This document shows positions 4,440-63,115 of a stretch of DNA of 64,000 bases, piece by piece. The notes beneath the pieces were generated by a model. The model was not told where the DNA came from and did not search any database. It worked only from the letters and a program-made list of their open reading frames with translations. Positions within the stretch are counted from its first letter, which is position 1. Every line of letters starts with the position of its first letter. Source of the stretch: Polyangiaceae bacterium (lineage in GTDB: Bacteria; Myxococcota_A; Polyangia; Polyangiales; Polyangiaceae); assembly GCA_025353725.1 (NCBI GenBank), contig JANXOF010000045.1, positions 186,001-250,000 of the forward strand, written 5' to 3'. The translations under genes were made by a program, and so were the position numbers.

Positions 4440-5663
4440 TTAGAAGAATACGGACTTATTGGCGATGAAGAGATTTGCCCAGTTCGCCGCGTTGTTGACC
4501 AAGCCGCCGGTATGTGGTCCCGCGGTTACTTTTGTAACAAGTAGACTTTTGCCAAGGTCAGTCTCGTTGAGGTTTTGAAGGATTTGAGTGCAGACAAGCG
4601 ATTGATTCGCGTTGTTCAGCGAGAGGCCCGCGAGTCCGGCCCCGTGACAGCTGGCGCAGTCTGGGCTGATGCCGCCTCCCCCCTTCATTGAAGGAAGCAC
4701 CTTCGCCGTGAACCCCGCAACGTCTTTGCAAATCTTGGGCTTTTCGAGGACGGGCACTTTGCCTGGTTCTAGCTTCGCAAATTCGATGCGCACTTTGTCG
4801 CTCGCAAAGTCAAAGGGGACCCACCCTGCCGCCGTGAAGAAAGCGGACCCCGGAGACAGCACGGTGATTGCGCCTCCGGGCACGGTCTGGTCTGTATTTG
4901 AAAAACTTTCGGCGGAGTCGGAGATCTCTTTGCGGTTGGCGCTGTCGCGCTTTGAAAGCACGCGGATGAAAGATGGCTTGTAGACGTGAACGTCGGTGCC
5001 GGCGGGTGCCGCGATCATCAACTTTGTGAGCGAAAGCACCCCGCCGGTCAGTGCCGCGTCGAAGGTCAGGTGAACGCCGGTCAGGCCCCCCACGCAAGCT
5101 TTGGAGAGATCAAGGTCGTTTGGGCCTAGGACAAGAGAGGTGGAGTCTGTCGTAGGCCTTTTCATCGCTTGAATAACGGCGGCTTCCATTTTTAGCCATG
5201 CGATGACCTTGGCTTCAAACGTCGGATCGACACTGATGGCGGGACCGGCATGTGGGCCTTTTTGGAGCAGCACACTTTGGTAATAGTCTGCGACAATGGC
5301 GCCGGGTTGCGCCTTTACCGACTTGTAGGCGTCTGGACCCGCGAGAAACGTAGGAGGGAGTGGCTTGTAGGTTCCATCGGTGTGGCACTTCTTTCCGCAC
5401 TGTTGCTCTAGGTCACCTTCGACGGCGCGAAAGAGAAGCTCCTCGGCGGGAGGCCCTGAGTTGTTCACGCCCGGTCCGCCGTCGGCCGGTCCTCGATCTT
5501 CGCTACCCACGCCTCCTGGTCCCCCGCGCGAGAGGAGCCCGTTGGCGCTGTCGTCTGCACACGCGCCGGCAGCGACGAGCAGCGCGATGCCTAGCCCGGC
5601 TGAAAGCGCCGCGACGCGGTGGCTTGCCAAACGCTTTTCTCCCACGACGTAACGATGCAGCAC
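4440..5663 (-). CDS. Secreted di-heme cytochrome-like lipoprotein, first gene of operon
   Basis: This 407-residue protein starts at GTG 5663; no ATG is in frame nearby and the Shine-Dalgarno is weak. The signal peptide ends in a lipobox-like AAGAC near residue 34. Two heme-like motifs are visible: CGKKCH (a four-residue-spaced variant, around residue 90) and CASCH (around residue 335, followed by GAGLAG). That gives one cytochrome-like half at each end with a beta-rich middle. It is the first gene of the operon 5663-943 and is separated from the next by 68 bp. It probably carries electrons to or from the DUF1549/1553-like partner (inference). Confidence 0.68.
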   Translation of the reverse strand: MLHRYVVGEKRLASHRVAALSAGLGIALLVAAGACADDSANGLLSRGGPGGVGSEDRGPADGGPGVNNSGPPAEELLFRAVEGDLEQQCGKKCHTDGTYKPLPPTFLAGPDAYKSVKAQPGAIVADYYQSVLLQKGPHAGPAISVDPTFEAKVIAWLKMEAAVIQAMKRPTTDSTSLVLGPNDLDLSKACVGGLTGVHLTFDAALTGGVLSLTKLMIAAPAGTDVHVYKPSFIRVLSKRDSANRKEISDSAESFSNTDQTVPGGAITVLSPGSAFFTAAGWVPFDFASDKVRIEFAKLEPGKVPVLEKPKICKDVAGFTAKVLPSMKGGGGISPDCASCHGAGLAGLSLNNANQSLVCTQILQNLNETDLGKSLLVTKVTAGPHTGGLVNNAANWANLFIANKSVFF

Positions 5664-56482: not shown

Positions 56483-56756
56483 TGCGTGGAATTCGTCGTG
56501 CGAACCGTTCGGGTCCCCAAGGGTAGCATCCGACTCCCTTCCCTTCCATCTGTGGGACGCGTTCGCGACTGTTGAACGTAAGAAAGGAGACCGCGGCTTT
56601 CGTGTGCTTCAGGTCGCGATCACCTCGTGTGTGGGTGTCGCACGCGCCACATCCTTTGGGTAGTCGTCGAATTCGAGCGAACCGGCAGAGCCTTGGATCC
56701 ACGGCGTGATACGGCCGAGCGCGTCATTTCCTTTGTACACCGGCTACCGCGCCCAC

Positions 56757-57940
56757 ATGCATGTTGCGATGAGACTCGCGCCTCCCTTCCTCGCGCCTTT
56801 TGCTCTGGCCTGTGCGGCGTTAAACTGCGGTGGTCCTACGTTCGTTGCGTCGTCGCGCGCTCGTGTGGAGAAAGTGTCGACTCCGGCTATCGACCTGGTT
56901 AGGGCGAGGGCGTACTTTTCTGACTTTGAAACCCAATGCTCCGCGGACGGCGGAAAGCTTTGGGGGCGGTCTCTCGCCGGTCCGTTTCTCTTCGTCGATT
57001 CTGCCACGCGCGACGTGGTCGCCAACCAGCGCGGAACTTCGACCTTCCCTACGGCCAGTCACGGAGTTTTCGTGGGTACGTTGACGCCCGCGGAAACGGT
57101 CGCGAACACCGCTCTCGGCTGCAACTTGAATGGAACGCGCTGCAGCACGCACTCGAAAGCACGAGCGACTCGCGGGAACAATTGATTGTCGACGCACTTA
57201 CGTTTCGAGCTTCGCGCGGAGCCGTATTTCCCAATGCGGCTCCGCGCGAGGCCGCCTTGGAGATTTTCGAAGGACTTGCGGAATACACGGGCGCAAGGCT
57301 TGCGAACTTTACCGACGTTGATGTCGTGCGCTCAGCCGTCGAACGGCGCTCGACGTCGACAGGTTTTGTCCGAATCTTTGCTTACGTGAGTGGTCCGCTC
57401 TACGGATTTCTGCTTGATGCCACGGGCGTTGACTGGCGTAAGCGTCTCACCAAAGAGACGGACCTTGCGTTGCTCCTAAGTGAGCTCACGCATCTCGGCC
57501 CTCACGGACAAGGCACACGAGATGCCGAGGAAGCCGAGCACCGTCACGGCGGAGAGGCGATCCGGCTCGCGGAGCGTGACATCGAGGCCAAGCGCCTTGC
57601 GAGGGTTTTCGAGTGGACTCAGTCACTGATCGTCGGACCGGTCTTAGTCGTCAATCTGAAGGAGGTCACCAGACGCAGCTTCGATCCGAGGCGCGTGTTC
57701 CCGTTGGATGAGCAACAAGTCGTGTATACGAGCCGCACGCTCAGTGCTTCTTGGGGAATGCTCACAGTCGACGATGGCGCAATTCTGGAGAACGAAGCGA
57801 CCGGTCGCGGCCATATTTCGTTGGTGGGTGCATCTGCGGACTACACGCGAGGTACGGGCTGGTCGCTCCACTTGGCAAAAGGCTGGGCGGTCGCAGCGTC
57901 CGCACGACCAGGTGACTTTACCGTTGCGCGCATTCGTTAG
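56757..57940 (+). pseudogene. Secreted metallopeptidase-like protein with internal out-of-frame deletion
   Basis: N-terminal sequence in one frame (signal peptide and lipobox ALNC, then CSADGGKLWGRSLAGPFLFV and ASHGVFVGTLTPAETVANTA) continues after 57112 in another frame (RLQLEWNALQHALESTSDSR, FEGLAEYTGARLAN, to DFTVARIR at 57940). Homologues I recall have about 50 more residues here, with an HExFHRIQ-like metallopeptidase motif. So a deletion of about 140 bp plus a shift removed the active site. The flanks keep good sequence, so the event is recent. The 3' end is duplicated at 59041-59139. Confidence 0.65.
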
Positions 57941-58037
57941 CGGCAGGGACTTCGAGGGGGCGCGCGCGACCCGCTCTCTGCTCCACTCCGCTGCAGAGCG
58001 GCAGCGTTCTACTCGGGAAGCGCCAGACCGCACATGT
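57848..58037. repeat. Diverged direct repeat, copy A
   Basis: 190 bp resemble 59041-59232 along their length, starting at CGAGGTAC and ending at CACATGT, including TGGCAAAAGGCTGG and CGGTCGCAGCGTCC. Copy A holds the 3' end of the peptidase-like gene and a remnant of the lipoprotein 3' end on the other strand. Confidence 0.7.
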
Positions 58038-58110
58038 GGGAGCGGATCGAGTGGCGGTCGGCCGCGCGGCCGAAGCCATCCGCGCTGCCGGAGGCGGGGG
58101 CGGGTGAGGC
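58009..58110 (-). pseudogene. Remnant of a second copy of the lipoprotein gene
   Basis: On the minus strand, SADGFGRAADRHSIRSHMCG then LALPE aligns with the end of the intact lipoprotein at 59207 (GADGLCKVHLLNYVAKDMCS then VALP). The spacing is identical between ADG and MC. Only about 35 codons can be followed. Confidence 0.5.
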
Positions 58111-58198
58111 GGCGCCCGTGCCGACGACGAACTCGCTCCTCGCCGCACGGGTGGTCACGCAAGATGTCCGAATGCGGTTCACGATCTCGCGCCGACGG

Positions 58199-58996
58199 CT
58201 ACCGTGATTTAAGCCGCTCGATCTCAAGGAGCGCCTCCGCAAGCCGCTTATCAAGGTCGTCGGCGCGCTCGGACTCTTGCTGCGCGCGCTCGGACTCTTG
58301 CTGCGCGCGTTCGGACTCTTGCTGCGCGCGTTCGGTGACCTCATTGACGGCGCGTTCGAGGCGAAGAACCAATTCCTCGGCTTCGGGCAGACTAGCTGTG
58401 CCGAAGTAGAATCGAACGCGGTCTCCCTCGACGGACAGGTCGAGCCGGAGGACCTTCGACTCATATCGGCCCGCCTGCGGTAGAATAGGGAGATACGAGC
58501 GCGCGCCCGGCTCGAGTCGCCAACCTGCGAGTCGCAAGTGTTGCCGATCAAACACAAAGTACTCGCCGATGCCTACGCGGGCGTAGCGCCTCACGTTCGT
58601 TTCGAAGTCCTTCTTTCGGCTGCCACTGACATGCACTTCAAGCACGAAGTCGAGGCCTTTACCCTCCTCGCTCACCACCCATTTTTCTCGTGGCTGGGTC
58701 TCAACGTCTCGCACCGCGAGGACGTCGGGGCAAAACATCGGTTCGTCGGGGTAGTAAGTAGCGAGCTCCTTCGAGACGTAGACCTTTTGGCCCACGCGCC
58801 GGAAGAACTCGTCGAGAGCGCTTACTGCGCGATCTTTCGCACGCGAATGGCGGTCCCCCTCCGGCGGGTGAAGGTACATCGGCACCTGGGCGGGCAGAGC
58901 GTCGACAACGGCACGTCGCTCAGAGGCGGTCAACGTGTCCCACTCCTCTTGCGAAGGGGCGCGAGGAAGTGTGGGCTCGAACGCTACAAGAGTCAC
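58199..58996 (-). CDS. Uma2-family (DUF820) putative restriction-type endonuclease
   Basis: I chose GTG 58996 (VTLVAFEPTLPRAPSQEEWD); the in-frame extension upstream is unlikely. The 265-residue protein has the Uma2 PD-(D/E)xK-like core: FCPDVLAVRDVE, LDFVLEVHVSGSRKKDFE, then RRYARVGIGEYFVFD. The C-terminal 45 residues form a coiled coil with a seven-residue unit ERAQQES repeated exactly three times. Uma2 proteins are usually multicopy in myxobacteria and of unknown role. It sits between two diverged direct repeats. Confidence 0.82.
   Translation of the reverse strand: MTLVAFEPTLPRAPSQEEWDTLTASERRAVVDALPAQVPMYLHPPEGDRHSRAKDRAVSALDEFFRRVGQKVYVSKELATYYPDEPMFCPDVLAVRDVETQPREKWVVSEEGKGLDFVLEVHVSGSRKKDFETNVRRYARVGIGEYFVFDRQHLRLAGWRLEPGARSYLPILPQAGRYESKVLRLDLSVEGDRVRFYFGTASLPEAEELVLRLERAVNEVTERAQQESERAQQESERAQQESERADDLDKRLAEALLEIERLKSR
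58264..58335 (-). repeat. 21-bp triplicate repeat inside the Uma2 gene
   Basis: The unit GCGCTCGGACTCTTGCTGCGC (shown in two parts: GCGCTCGGACTC and TTGCTGCGC) is present three times in tandem with one G/T change. It encodes the ERAQQES heptad of the coiled coil. The near-perfect copies suggest recent slippage. Confidence 0.8.
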
Positions 58997-59040
58997 GGTA
59001 GAAGAATAGCAGCCGTCGCTTATCTTCGCACCCTCCGCGC

Positions 59041-59232
59041 CGAGGTACAGACGGGTCGTTCTAACTGGCAAAAGGCTGGACGGTCGCAGCGTCCACACGA
59101 CAGGGTGATTTTGTCCTCGTGCGCACTCGTTGGCGATAGTGATTTTGACAAGGCGCGCGCCCGACCAGGTCTCGGCTCCAGTCCGGTGCAGAGCGACGAT
59201 CTTTTATCAAGGAAGCGCGACGCTGCACATGT
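59041..59232. repeat. Diverged direct repeat, copy B
   Basis: Second copy of the 57848-58037 segment. It contains, on +, the last codons of a peptidase-like paralogue (LAKGWTVAASTRQGDFVLVR, stop at 59137-59139), which has no upstream gene here. On - it contains the real end of the lipoprotein gene at 59207. Confidence 0.7.
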
Positions 59233-59887
59233 CTTTTGCGACGTAGTTGAGAAGGTGAACTTTGCAAAGTCCGTCGGCTCCTCCGACCGCGTCGCCGAGG
59301 CACAAGGCTTTTTCGAGAAAATTATCGAGTTCGCTACAGCAGTCGAGAAGTTGGCTGCAGTACGATACGGACGAAGCGCTTTCCACGACAGCGACGCTAA
59401 CGAGTTTCGTTTGCTCGGTAGCGCCCGTCGCTGACGCACGAAGCGTCACCGATAGCGGTCCAATCGCCGCGTCGGTCGTTGCCGAGAGAGTCAATTCCCC
59501 GCTCGTTGCGCCGGCAGGAAGGATGATCTGCGGCGCCGCAAGGCCCGCCGGAAGCTGACTCGCACTCAGCATGATGGGACCTGTCTGCCCATTGCCGCGT
59601 GAGACTAAAACGGGAATTCGGGCCGTCGCGCCTCGCGTCACGTTGACTACACCGCCAGCGACAGTAAGCGTGAAGCTCGTGTCTGGCGCCCCGGCATCGG
59701 CAGCAGGCGAGGTGGGCGTCGCCGCTGGGGTTACGGGAACTTTAGGCGCTTCGCTCTCTTTTTTGACGAGATTTTTGTCGTCGTTACCTGTCGCTGGACT
59801 CGAAGCACACGCGATCGTCGAGACCGCAGCGGCAGCGAGGAGCGTGACAAGAAGGCCCGCGCGAGTGTTCGATGTCAGGGATGCCAT
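59207..59887 (-). CDS. Secreted Ig-like lipoprotein, Cys-rich end
   Basis: The start is ATG 59887 (MASLTSNTRAGLL) with GAGGT seven bases before; a much longer upstream frame has no signal peptide and is rejected. The 226-residue protein has lipobox STIAC, a Pro/Ala/Asp linker, one Ig-like beta domain (VTRGATARIPVLVSRGNGQT to SATGATEQTKLVSVAV) and a C-terminal helical piece with six cysteines (SYCSQLLDCCSELDN, ALCLGD, GLCKVH, KDMCSV). It may bind a surface ligand. Its 3' end has a duplicated remnant at 58009. Confidence 0.65.
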   Translation of the reverse strand: MASLTSNTRAGLLVTLLAAAAVSTIACASSPATGNDDKNLVKKESEAPKVPVTPAATPTSPAADAGAPDTSFTLTVAGGVVNVTRGATARIPVLVSRGNGQTGPIMLSASQLPAGLAAPQIILPAGATSGELTLSATTDAAIGPLSVTLRASATGATEQTKLVSVAVVESASSVSYCSQLLDCCSELDNFLEKALCLGDAVGGADGLCKVHLLNYVAKDMCSVALP

Positions 59888-60082
59888 TTCAATTACCTCG
59901 TGCCACATCGAAGCAGAAGGCGTACCAACCACGCGCCCGTGCGAGAACCGCGCTTTCGCTTCAATTTTAGCCGTTTTTGCGGTTTGAACCGCGCGTGGTC
60001 CATGGTGCACGCTTTCACCACCGGTGTACTTCCGAGGGACCACGAGCCGCCCGTCGTCGTCGCGGTCGGCTTCCGTCGTCGC

Positions 60083-60997
60083 CTACTTCAAAAGCTTCTC
60101 GAGCTGCGCGACATCGAAGCGGATGAGGGCTTCATACGAGTCCGTTTCGGCCCCTCCGCCGAGTGCGTCAAGTACCCCAAGGGAAATCTTCGCCTCGTCG
60201 GCGAGCGCTTTCGCGGGGTAGGCATCGGACTGCGGCTCGCTAAAAACAGCGCGGATACCCTGAGCTTTCAGGATCTCGCGAACACGGCCGTAGTGCGCTC
60301 TTCCCTCGTGCTCGTCGCCCCGGAAAATCCCAATGAACGCCGGAGTTTCAAGTTTGTAGCGCTCACCAAAGTACTGAAACGCTCCGTGGAACGGCACAAA
60401 CGTGCGCGTTTTCATCGCTTTCGTCCTCGTTTCGACTTCGGCGTCGAGCGCCGCAAGCGAGGCATCGACCTCCGTGGCGCGCTTCCGGTAGGCGAGCGCG
60501 TGGGCAGAGTCGGCTTTGCCAAGCTCCTCGGCGATGGCACGCACGATGAGCCGCGCGCGTTCCGGATCGAGCCACACATGAGGGTCGGGCGTCCCGTCGG
60601 CTTCGTTCGTGAGCGTCGGAACACGGTCGCCCACTTTCAACACGCGGGCCTTTGGCGCGGCGTTGGCGAGCAGCGTCTCCATCCACGCGTCGAGCCCGAG
60701 CCCGACCAAGATGCCCACACGCACCTTCGACGCGGCCTCGACTTCGGCCGGGCTCGGCTCGGGTCTCGCTGCGTGCTCGCTGGTCCCGGGTGGCACCATG
60801 AGCGTCACGTCCGCGTCGGGGCCCGCGACGCGGCGAACCAAGTCGTAGATGGGAAACACTGAAACGCTCACGGTCATCCGCGGGCGATCCCTCGACTCCT
60901 CGCCGCTTTTACAGCCTTTAGAGCACCCCCAAAGGCCTGCCGCCAAGGTGATGGCGCACCCGAGAGCCACGACAGGGAAGAGAGCGCGCTTGAGCAT
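60083..60997 (-). CDS. Zinc/manganese ABC transporter substrate-binding lipoprotein (ZnuA-like)
   Basis: I prefer ATG 60997 (MLKRALFPVVALG); GTG 61015 is possible. The lipobox is LWGC. The 304-residue protein has the cluster A-I metal-binding layout: TSEHAARPEPSPAEVEAA, PDPHVWLDPERARLI (His ligand), FVPFHGAFQYFGERY (His ligand) and VFSEPQSDAYPAKALADEA (Glu/Asp). It lacks the long His-rich loop of ZnuA, so Mn or Zn specificity is open. No permease or ATPase gene is adjacent, so it is an orphan component. Confidence 0.87.
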   Translation of the reverse strand: MLKRALFPVVALGCAITLAAGLWGCSKGCKSGEESRDRPRMTVSVSVFPIYDLVRRVAGPDADVTLMVPPGTSEHAARPEPSPAEVEAASKVRVGILVGLGLDAWMETLLANAAPKARVLKVGDRVPTLTNEADGTPDPHVWLDPERARLIVRAIAEELGKADSAHALAYRKRATEVDASLAALDAEVETRTKAMKTRTFVPFHGAFQYFGERYKLETPAFIGIFRGDEHEGRAHYGRVREILKAQGIRAVFSEPQSDAYPAKALADEAKISLGVLDALGGGAETDSYEALIRFDVAQLEKLLK

Positions 60998-61088
60998 GAT
61001 CCGCGGACTTCGCACAGTGCGCAGCCTATCGCAAAAGTGACCTCTGATTCGTCCCGCGCGCGGCTCGTGTTACAACCTGCGCGCCCCG

Positions 61089-62171
61089 ATGGAGACTACG
61101 TCACGCGAAGTGGAAGAACCGCCCTACGAAATCCGTGGCTCGTTGCCCGAGGACGAAGCGCAGATCTTACGTATCGCCAGGCACTTGAACACGGTGAATC
61201 TTCCCGAGGAGGAGGAGGGAGTGCGCCAAATCCTTGCGGCATCCCACCAAAGCTTCACGCAGGCGACGGCCGAACCGTCACGGCGTCAGTACGTTTTTGT
61301 GCTCGTCGAGCGCGCGACCGGGACGATCCTCGGCACCTCGATGGTCTTCGCGCAGCTGGGTCGTAAAGATGCGCCCTACATCTATCTCGACGTGATTGAC
61401 GAGGAGCGTTACTCGCAAACGTTGGACAAGCACTTCGAGCACACGGTGCTGAAGATCGGCTACTCGTACAATGGGCCAACCGAAATCGGCGGCCTGGTCC
61501 TCGACCCTACGTACCGGCGGGTGCCCGAGCGCCTCGGTACGTTCTTGTCGTACGTGCGCTTTCTCTTCATTAAAATGCACCGCCCCTGGTTTCGTGACGA
61601 GGTACTCGCCGAGCTGCTCCCACCCCTCGAAAAAGACGGTACTTCGCACCTTTGGGACGCGCTCGGGCGTCACTTTACGGGGATGACTTACGCCGAGGCC
61701 GACAAGCTCTCGCGCAAGAACAAGGAGTTCATTCGAGGTCTTTTTCCCGAAGGCACCATCCACGCTTCGCTCCTTCCCAAAGATGCCCAAAGCGTGATCG
61801 GGAAGGTCGGCGCGCAGACCCGTGGCGTCGAAAAACTCCTTCGCCGCATTGGCTTTCGCTACGCCGACCGCGTCGACCCTTTTGACGGCGGCCCGCACTT
61901 TACCGCCGCGACCGACGAAGTCAGCCTCGTCTCGAGCTCACGCCGCTTTCGGGTCGAGGAACTCGTCGCCGAGGCCACGCTCGCGGCTTTGCCACCCGAA
62001 AAACGTAGACGCGCCGTCGTTGCCGTCGAGCCGAACGGGCCGCCCTTCTTTCGAGCGGTGCTCGCGCCCTTCGAGCCGCGCGGCTCCGAGGGGTGTGCGC
62101 TCGGGAGGCTTGCCGCGCGGGCGCTCGGTCTCGAGGTTGGCTCAGAGGCCTGGATTCTGCCCCTCGAGTGA
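61089..62171 (+). CDS. astA: Arginine N-succinyltransferase-like protein
   Basis: This 360-residue protein matches AstA along its length: RIARHLNTVNLPEEEEGVRQ, YVFVLVERATGTILGTSMVF, EIGGLVLDPTYRRVPERLGT, LSYVRFLFIKMHRPWF, LWDALGRHFTGMTYAEADKL, and FIRGLFPEGTIHASLLP. AstA transfers succinyl from succinyl-CoA to arginine, the first step of the AST pathway. No astB, astC, astD or astE is adjacent. The AstE-type hydrolase at 29825 lies in an unrelated operon. So the gene may work in AST from elsewhere or acylate another amine. Its stop is 14 bp from the convergent EEP gene. Confidence 0.85.
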   Translation: METTSREVEEPPYEIRGSLPEDEAQILRIARHLNTVNLPEEEEGVRQILAASHQSFTQATAEPSRRQYVFVLVERATGTILGTSMVFAQLGRKDAPYIYLDVIDEERYSQTLDKHFEHTVLKIGYSYNGPTEIGGLVLDPTYRRVPERLGTFLSYVRFLFIKMHRPWFRDEVLAELLPPLEKDGTSHLWDALGRHFTGMTYAEADKLSRKNKEFIRGLFPEGTIHASLLPKDAQSVIGKVGAQTRGVEKLLRRIGFRYADRVDPFDGGPHFTAATDEVSLVSSSRRFRVEELVAEATLAALPPEKRRRAVVAVEPNGPPFFRAVLAPFEPRGSEGCALGRLAARALGLEVGSEAWILPLE

Positions 62172-62185
62172 GCCAGGTGCGCTAG

Positions 62186-63115
62186 CTAGTCGAACGCGAA
62201 CGAGCCGACGAGCGGCACGTGGTCGGAAAGGCCACGAAAAGTGCCGTTTCGCTGACCGAAACGGTGCGATCCGTCGAAGTTTAGCCAATTCAGTGCACGG
62301 CCCGTGAAGATGTGATCGAGGTGCATCCGGAGGTTCATGAAGCCCGCCGTGGGCCACGCGACGAGCGCCTCTTCGTGCAGTTGAAAGTGACGTGCGAAAG
62401 CGTCCTCGAATCCGTGCTCGCGGAGGTACCGGTACGCGGGCGATCCCGGTAGCGCATTGAAATCGCCGACGACGATAAACCGTTCGCTCGCCCGTTCGCG
62501 CGCGACAAAGTGCGCGAGATTCTTGGCCTCTTCGAGCTGGTTTGGGCCCCAGCCCATACGCCGCGGCTCAAGCCAAAACGCGCGAGAAAACGCCGTCGGC
62601 AGACTCAGGTGCGTGTTGAAAACATCCAGGCCGACGCCCGACCGGTGGTGAACGCGCAGATGCGCGCAGATGCGCGTTTGCTTAAGCTTTTTCACGGGGT
62701 GCGCAGCGCGCGACGTGATGTCGTGCGGCTGAGCGGCGTTGTCATGTGACACCCGGAAGTCGCCACGCACAAGCACGGCGAGTCCCGTTGTATAAAGTGG
62801 CGCCGTGCTGACCCGATACGCGTGTGCCGGGAAGTAATACGCCTCATAGGCATCGGGCTTTCCGCGTGCGCGCAGCGCGTGCTGGAGCATGGCCATCAGG
62901 CGATCAAGTTGGGTCTCACCGGCTGGCGCGGGGTGAGCCATATTTGAACGCAAGGACGTGGTCTCGACCTCTTGAAGGCAAATAATGTCGGCGAGCGGGG
63001 CGAGTGTGGCGAGCGCCTCGGCGATGCGCGCCATGGCTTTCGCCGTGCTCGCGATTCCGCGCGTGGCGTGTCCAAAATAGCGAACGTTATAAGTGACGAC
63101 GCGCACGGGAGCCAT
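62186..63115 (-). CDS. Endonuclease/exonuclease/phosphatase family protein
   Basis: The start is ATG 63115 (MAPVRVVTYNVRYFG) with GGAGG seven bases upstream; an extra 20 residues are possible in frame. The 309-residue protein has all EEP active-site blocks: VTYNVRYF, IICLQEVETT (Glu), NTHLSLP, VVGDFNALPGS (Asp, Asn) and FRGLSDHVPLVGS (Asp-His). No signal peptide is present, so it is cytoplasmic. Substrates may be nucleic acid, a phosphoinositide-like or another phosphodiester. No operon partner. Confidence 0.9.
   Translation of the reverse strand: MAPVRVVTYNVRYFGHATRGIASTAKAMARIAEALATLAPLADIICLQEVETTSLRSNMAHPAPAGETQLDRLMAMLQHALRARGKPDAYEAYYFPAHAYRVSTAPLYTTGLAVLVRGDFRVSHDNAAQPHDITSRAAHPVKKLKQTRICAHLRVHHRSGVGLDVFNTHLSLPTAFSRAFWLEPRRMGWGPNQLEEAKNLAHFVARERASERFIVVGDFNALPGSPAYRYLREHGFEDAFARHFQLHEEALVAWPTAGFMNLRMHLDHIFTGRALNWLNFDGSHRFGQRNGTFRGLSDHVPLVGSFAFD

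Follow-up and report, generated by a model that had tools for sequence, protein, structure and literature searches.

The Uma2-family gene in the stretch of 64,000 nt analyzed here (the window) lies between two diverged copies of a junction where a peptidase-like and a lipoprotein-like gene converge. In our reading, to which we give a probability of roughly 0.55, the locus is a scar left when an insertion duplicated ~190 bp of its target. Local alignment places copy A at 57848–58037 (190 nt) and copy B at 59041–59232 (192 nt). The gapped alignment has 192 columns with one 2-nt gap and 46 differences in the 190 ungapped columns, leaving 144/190 positions (~76%) identical, and its score of 141 compares with a maximum of 32 when the copy-B region was shuffled 1,000 times under a Markov model. 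The convergent junction is thus present twice where the earlier note had placed it. Identity is 78/99 in the first 99 columns, covering the peptidase tail and the bases just beyond, 47/64 in the intergenic part, and 19/27 in the lipoprotein tail; the alignment that the note had proposed as a check therefore finds similarity outside the coding ends, through the intergenic stretch. Since the copies are 24% divergent, their boundaries are approximate: looser scoring added 16–19 gapped bases on the left (to 57832/59022) and moved the right edge of the intervening segment to 59021. An anchored extension test with linear gap costs detected no homology past either repeat end.

Copy A consists of a peptidase tail (57848–57940), an intergenic part (57941–58008), and a lipoprotein tail (58009–58037); copy B begins with a remnant of the peptidase tail at 59041 and closes with a lipoprotein tail at 59207–59232. 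On its outer side copy A runs on into the peptidase gene, and on its inner side it keeps ~9 lipoprotein codons, the remnant reading MCGLALPE-stop on the minus strand within 58009–58037. The outer side of copy B runs on into the intact lipoprotein gene, while its peptidase end is ~31 codons long (59041–59133) and contains an early in-frame stop. Both copies are uninterrupted, and on their inner sides they abut a segment of 1,003 bp. The continuity of A with the peptidase and of B with the lipoprotein, with neither copy broken, supports insertion with target duplication. Searched with copy A, the draft genome of the same organism (6.6 Mb, 98 contigs, 97.55% complete) gave copy B as the only other significant match (E 4.7e-30), the next having an E-value of 0.11. 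With two significant copies only in the draft genome, the possibility of a dispersed repeat was ruled out, and since the ends of both neighboring genes also lie inside the repeat, we take it to be target DNA rather than a dispersed element.

Under the target-duplication reading, a segment of ~1 kb bearing the Uma2 gene would have entered the convergent gap between the peptidase-like and lipoprotein genes, and ~190 bp of the target would have been copied, one copy ending up on each side of the insert. The copied target would comprise the terminal ~31 codons of the peptidase gene, the gap, and the terminal ~9 codons of the lipoprotein gene. The outer genes would so retain their natural ends, the inner parts of the copies would resemble gene remnants, and the copies would then have drifted to ~76% identity. 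We infer that a single event produced both the duplication and the insertion, by staggered breakage and fill-in or by template switching. The remnants described in the earlier note, an inner lipoprotein end in A and an inner peptidase end in B, are indeed there, although we read them as the ends of target copies and not as lost genes.

The peptidase-like gene beside copy A (56706–57940, plus strand) was delimited from its open reading frames and an alignment with homologues from the genomes G005 and G108, and to judge from these it is a pseudogene with an internal deletion upstream of the junction. Its 5′ part reaches to ~57113 and its 3′ part runs onward in another frame, the change of frame falling near 57110–57131, and this frame still reaches the natural stop at 57940. 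The intact G005 and G108 homologues have ~60 residues, the HExxH stretch among them, that are absent here; in a further homologue (L060) HEAFH lies at residue 141, between flanking motifs that begin at 109 and 172. The HExxH motif is present in 82 of 83 homologous peptidase loci (80 from named genomes and three from the G-numbered genomes), the lone exception being a partial match, and from this motif we infer that the family is one of metallopeptidases. Intact homologues gave no match to Pfam (two tested) or NCBIfam (one tested). The peptidase is rare in the bacterial family, occurring in 4/108 genomes including that of the window. The earlier picture of copy A beside a peptidase gene and copy B beside a lipoprotein gene stands, with the amendment that this peptidase, lacking HExxH, is itself broken.

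The lipoprotein-like gene (59207–59887, minus strand) has an intact reading frame of 226 aa from the ATG at 59887 and a Cys-rich C terminus. No Pfam family exceeded its cut-off and NCBIfam gave no match. Of 57 other related genomes, 14 have weak partial matches (best E 9.9e-12); all of these stop at or before residue 178 of 227, leaving the Cys-rich end without a relative in those 57 genomes.

The segment between the copies, which we read as the insert, spans 58038–59040 (1,003 bp, no strand) as defined by the alignment edges, and no significant similarity to the body of the lipoprotein or the peptidase was found at its edges. The gene that the earlier note had assigned to Uma2 is confirmed by a match to PF05685 at 58199–58996 on the minus strand; if translation begins at the GTG at 58996, the protein has 265 aa, and it scores 62 bits against a cut-off of 27. 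Pfam describes the family as "Putative restriction endonuclease." The protein had no NCBIfam match at E 0.1 and nothing among PDB sequences at E 0.01. Its C-terminal tail consists of heptad repeats, and at 58263–58335 a 21-bp tandem repeat present three times encodes AQQESER heptads of this tail. The open reading frame list shows no second gene of methyltransferase size in the segment, and no terminal inverted repeats of the insert were seen among the 25 of 45 pairs listed. Downstream of the Uma2 gene lies a piece of 161 bp (58038–58198, no strand) in which no gene was recognized and whose GC content is 74.5%, vs. 61.8% for the window. Against the organism's own genome this piece gave weak short matches only (best E 0.001), and a 68-bp match to G001 (L057) had no evident shared reading frame. 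The target-duplication reading provides no explanation for these 161 bp of GC-rich DNA inside the insert, which weighs against it. In a comparison of five loci, Uma2 homologues aligned only within 58212–58967 of the window, so the ends of the insert are not fixed by comparison.

An iterated profile search that caught 101 of 110 proteins provided the sample of aligned Uma2 members. D91 is shared by 101/102 and E120 by 97/97 of the aligned members, and the window protein has both; we take them to be the acidic residues of a PD-(D/E)XK-type site. The column of its N134 holds K in 89/97 members, presumably the catalytic lysine of the site, and N in 4/97, the window protein and its relative from G002 being among these four. 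The nuclease activity of the window protein is accordingly uncertain and it may be inactive; together with its G002 relative it possibly represents an inactive or altered subgroup in which the acidic residues are kept. The Asn in place of the common Lys weakens any claim of insertion driven by the gene itself. A close relative in G002 (L099, 5291–7784) adjoins an open reading frame that we presume to be transposase-like. Two fragments in contigs of G000 (L101 5702–5823 in C11 and L103 4752–4849 in C81) match portions of the window gene at 86% and 82% identity and are apparently relics of close paralogues.

The earlier note had proposed, as the simplest history, a tandem duplication of the peptidase–lipoprotein pair, with one gene later lost from each copy and the Uma2 gene gained between them. 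That history would yield the identical final layout, and it has models in L211 (G000) and L267 (G009), where Uma2 lies between apparent whole tandem paralogues. It requires, however, that two gene bodies were removed, and no residue of them was found at the insert edges, whereas a target duplication of ~190 bp gives the same layout without loss of any whole gene and is favored on that ground. Nor did the genomes that the note had suggested looking for, with two complete pairs or with the junction free of Uma2, come to light: the peptidase search found no peptidase–lipoprotein junction, single or double, in 108 family genomes. In the flanks of the 83 other peptidase loci (shorter than 10 kb at 15 of the 80 named loci), neither the lipoprotein nor Uma2 was matched at E 0.01, and the junction reached nothing better than E 0.018. 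DNA searches for the junction in related genomes scored six candidates per genome; no empty site was found for the window locus, nor for the L292 locus discussed below, and this counts against the target-duplication reading. Duplication of the whole pair is in our view an unlikely history of the locus.

Slightly less likely again is single-crossover integration of a circular DNA that bore Uma2 together with a divergent junction copy. Such an event would give both bracketing copies in one step, and their divergence could be older than the integration itself. However, DNA with 24% sequence divergence is a poor substrate for homologous recombination, and the 108 family genomes and 83 peptidase loci yielded no junction that could have been its source. 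The differences within the peptidase tail, compared over 33 codons, are distributed 9, 6, and 6 over the codon positions; from these 21 differences only, the even spread is what drift would be expected to give and appears unlike the import of a diverged copy from a working peptidase gene. A tandem duplication of the ~190-bp junction that came first, with Uma2 inserted between the copies later, needs no gene loss and has counterparts in two-copy direct repeats of 75–472 bp without Uma2 elsewhere (L314, L325, and L346), but the later insertion would have had to strike the boundary between the copies, both copies being uninterrupted, and we regard it as the least probable of the three.

We also looked at direct repeats around other Uma2 genes. 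The family has 23 matches in this genome (two under the cut-off) and 249 over the 12 genomes of the genus searched, 11 of which have any. Of the 249 matches, 112 entered a scan for flanking repeats and 110 were scored, L204 and L258 having too little flank; the controls were 1,423 overlapping windows, unmatched for accessory genes, taken from 40 stretches that belong to six of these genomes and to the window. Repeats scoring at least 80 flanked 8/110 Uma2 loci vs. 9/1,423 control windows (six places), the eight being the locus reported here (scored as L213), L292, L211, L267, L208, L243, and L297, which was counted twice. With two-copy repeats only, the numbers were 4/110 vs. 5/1,423 windows (three places; P = 0.0024, overlapping windows treated as independent), and without the present locus 3/109 vs. 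5/1,423 (P = 0.015, with overlapping windows and unmatched controls). Copy number was assessed genome-wide for the present locus, L208, and L292, and on retrieved DNA only for L211, L267, and the control repeats. A second null, in which the flanks of different loci were paired, gave 7/110 vs. 8/1,054 at a score of at least 40, the seven being L292, L213 (the present locus), L243, L229, L274, and L297 twice. These counts do no more than suggest an enrichment of such duplications at Uma2 genes. That two-copy direct repeats also bracket DNA without Uma2 (the 5/1,423 control windows in three places) weighs against our reading. The one Uma2 reading frame within the 40 control stretches (L344) lies away from any repeat.

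The single clean parallel appears to be L292 of the congener G005, which has the look of a fresh instance of the window layout. There a Uma2 gene (188 aa, 83.6 bits) is flanked by 100% identical direct copies of 82 bp, each taking in the final 18 codons of a protein-kinase gene and what is apparently the beginning of the reading frame that follows. Both of these frames remain open. The 82-bp repeat is found at full length at two places in G005 only, with two short partial matches elsewhere. The pieces upstream and downstream of Uma2 at L292 are unlike those of the window insert. In its arrangement the window locus looks like an older version of L292.

Seven other loci were set aside as examples and yet kept in the counts: L211 and L267 for the apparent whole tandem paralogues noted above; L208, where the ~180–190-bp repeat occurs at six places in G000, its own two included; L243, with a repeat dispersed over G010 and G008 DNA; L297, a case of tandem Uma2 genes; L229 (score 52), where the copies do not adjoin the insert; and L274 (score 40). 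The repeat that brackets Uma2 at L208 (134–315 and 2422–2612) is dispersed, whole or partial, in G000, and that of L243 (1425–1493 and 2130–2198) is ~60–70 bp long with inverted-looking ends (GACCGC...GCGGTC). The one reading frame compared with Pfam at L229 had no match. L325 contains a 472-bp direct repeat (2417–2888 and 5010–5480) whose copies are ~93% identical and enclose genes resembling those for short-chain dehydrogenases and IrrE/M78 proteins, possibly another insertion with duplication and one without Uma2. The 111-bp repeat at L323 (11050–11160) has nine matches, itself included, in the retrieved G000 DNA at 95–98% identity and is a dispersed element of that genome.

The locus adjoins znuA (60083–61015, minus strand; Pfam ZnuA, 196.8 bits). 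According to tblastn, 15 related genomes have a znuA match and in 12 of them znuC lies next to it, whereas G018, G021, and G022 gave no znuC; all nine congeners with a znuA match, among the 11 searched, have the adjoining znuC. In the window, a block of ~3.6 kb with the peptidase, Uma2, and lipoprotein genes occupies the place of znuC beside znuA. Across 56483–60082 znuC is absent, with no orthologue found in the draft genome, and znuA is retained: a tblastn search of the window with the ZnuC of one congener gave no significant match that could be a remnant, and a congener znuC compared with the whole genome had a best-scoring match 34% identical and none of 37 above 39%, values in line with other ABC ATPases. 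Among eight congeners, queried with the ninth, znuC identity is 69–88%. As neither a znuC remnant in the window nor a close znuC in the draft genome was found, the block is read as a lineage-specific replacement of znuC. Seven congener stretches contain znuA and astA together; a tonB-like gene is present in six of the seven, where the contig reaches, and an Exo_endo_phos gene in four, and znuC sits between tonB and znuA. The gap from astA to the Exo_endo_phos gene is 15 bp in the window (62171–62186) vs. ~1.9–4.0 kb in four congener stretches, and holds other reading frames in the two congeners inspected; the short gap is read as another local loss.

Taken by itself, the window locus is one old scar, and what is new here is the broken peptidase without HExxH and the block in the place of znuC beside znuA. 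Its wider interest lies in Uma2, a nuclease-like family that is present in many copies and whose function is uncertain. The family (DUF820, COG4636, PF05685) is expanded in cyanobacteria and Thermus (PMC1274311, PMC9403480), and has been described as a likely solo toxin and predicted PD-(D/E)XK endonuclease found mostly in cassettes of paralogues (PMC2701414). The window gene resembles it in its Pfam match above the cut-off and in its many copies per genome. The passages of this literature that we consulted are silent on the route of multiplication, and the titles, abstract openings, and passages on Uma2/DUF820 that we covered contain no report of target duplications. It is conceivable, though we think it doubtful, that the Uma2 genes in this bacterial group are self-standing mobile units that spread one gene at a time, with neither a transposase nor fixed ends, through insertions in which a target stretch of some tens to hundreds of base pairs, mostly at the end of a gene, is copied. 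If true, this would help account for the expansion of Uma2 to dozens per genome, and if long target duplications mark Uma2 insertions, a scan of many genomes would reveal their movement.

The closest known counterparts are restriction-modification genes, whose insertion with long target duplication was reportedly described by Nobusato et al. in 2000 and Furuta et al. in 2010. Published accounts state that insertion of these genes can be accompanied by target duplications that are long and vary in length (PMC3874152, PMC3031569), on the order of 100 bp (PMC3874152), and credit a Helicobacter pylori example to Nobusato et al. 2000 (PMC1643837). The present case differs from them in its cargo, which is Uma2 by itself, the open reading frame list showing no methyltransferase; in the Asn that replaces the Lys common in the family; and in its copies, which are old and diverged and for which no empty site was found. 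The two are alike in combining a nuclease-related gene with a segment without transposase, in the long and variable direct copies of the target (~100 bp there and 82 and ~190 bp here), and in the outer genes that retain their ends. If long target duplications do mark Uma2 insertions, the mobility route of restriction-modification genes would extend to a lone predicted nuclease.
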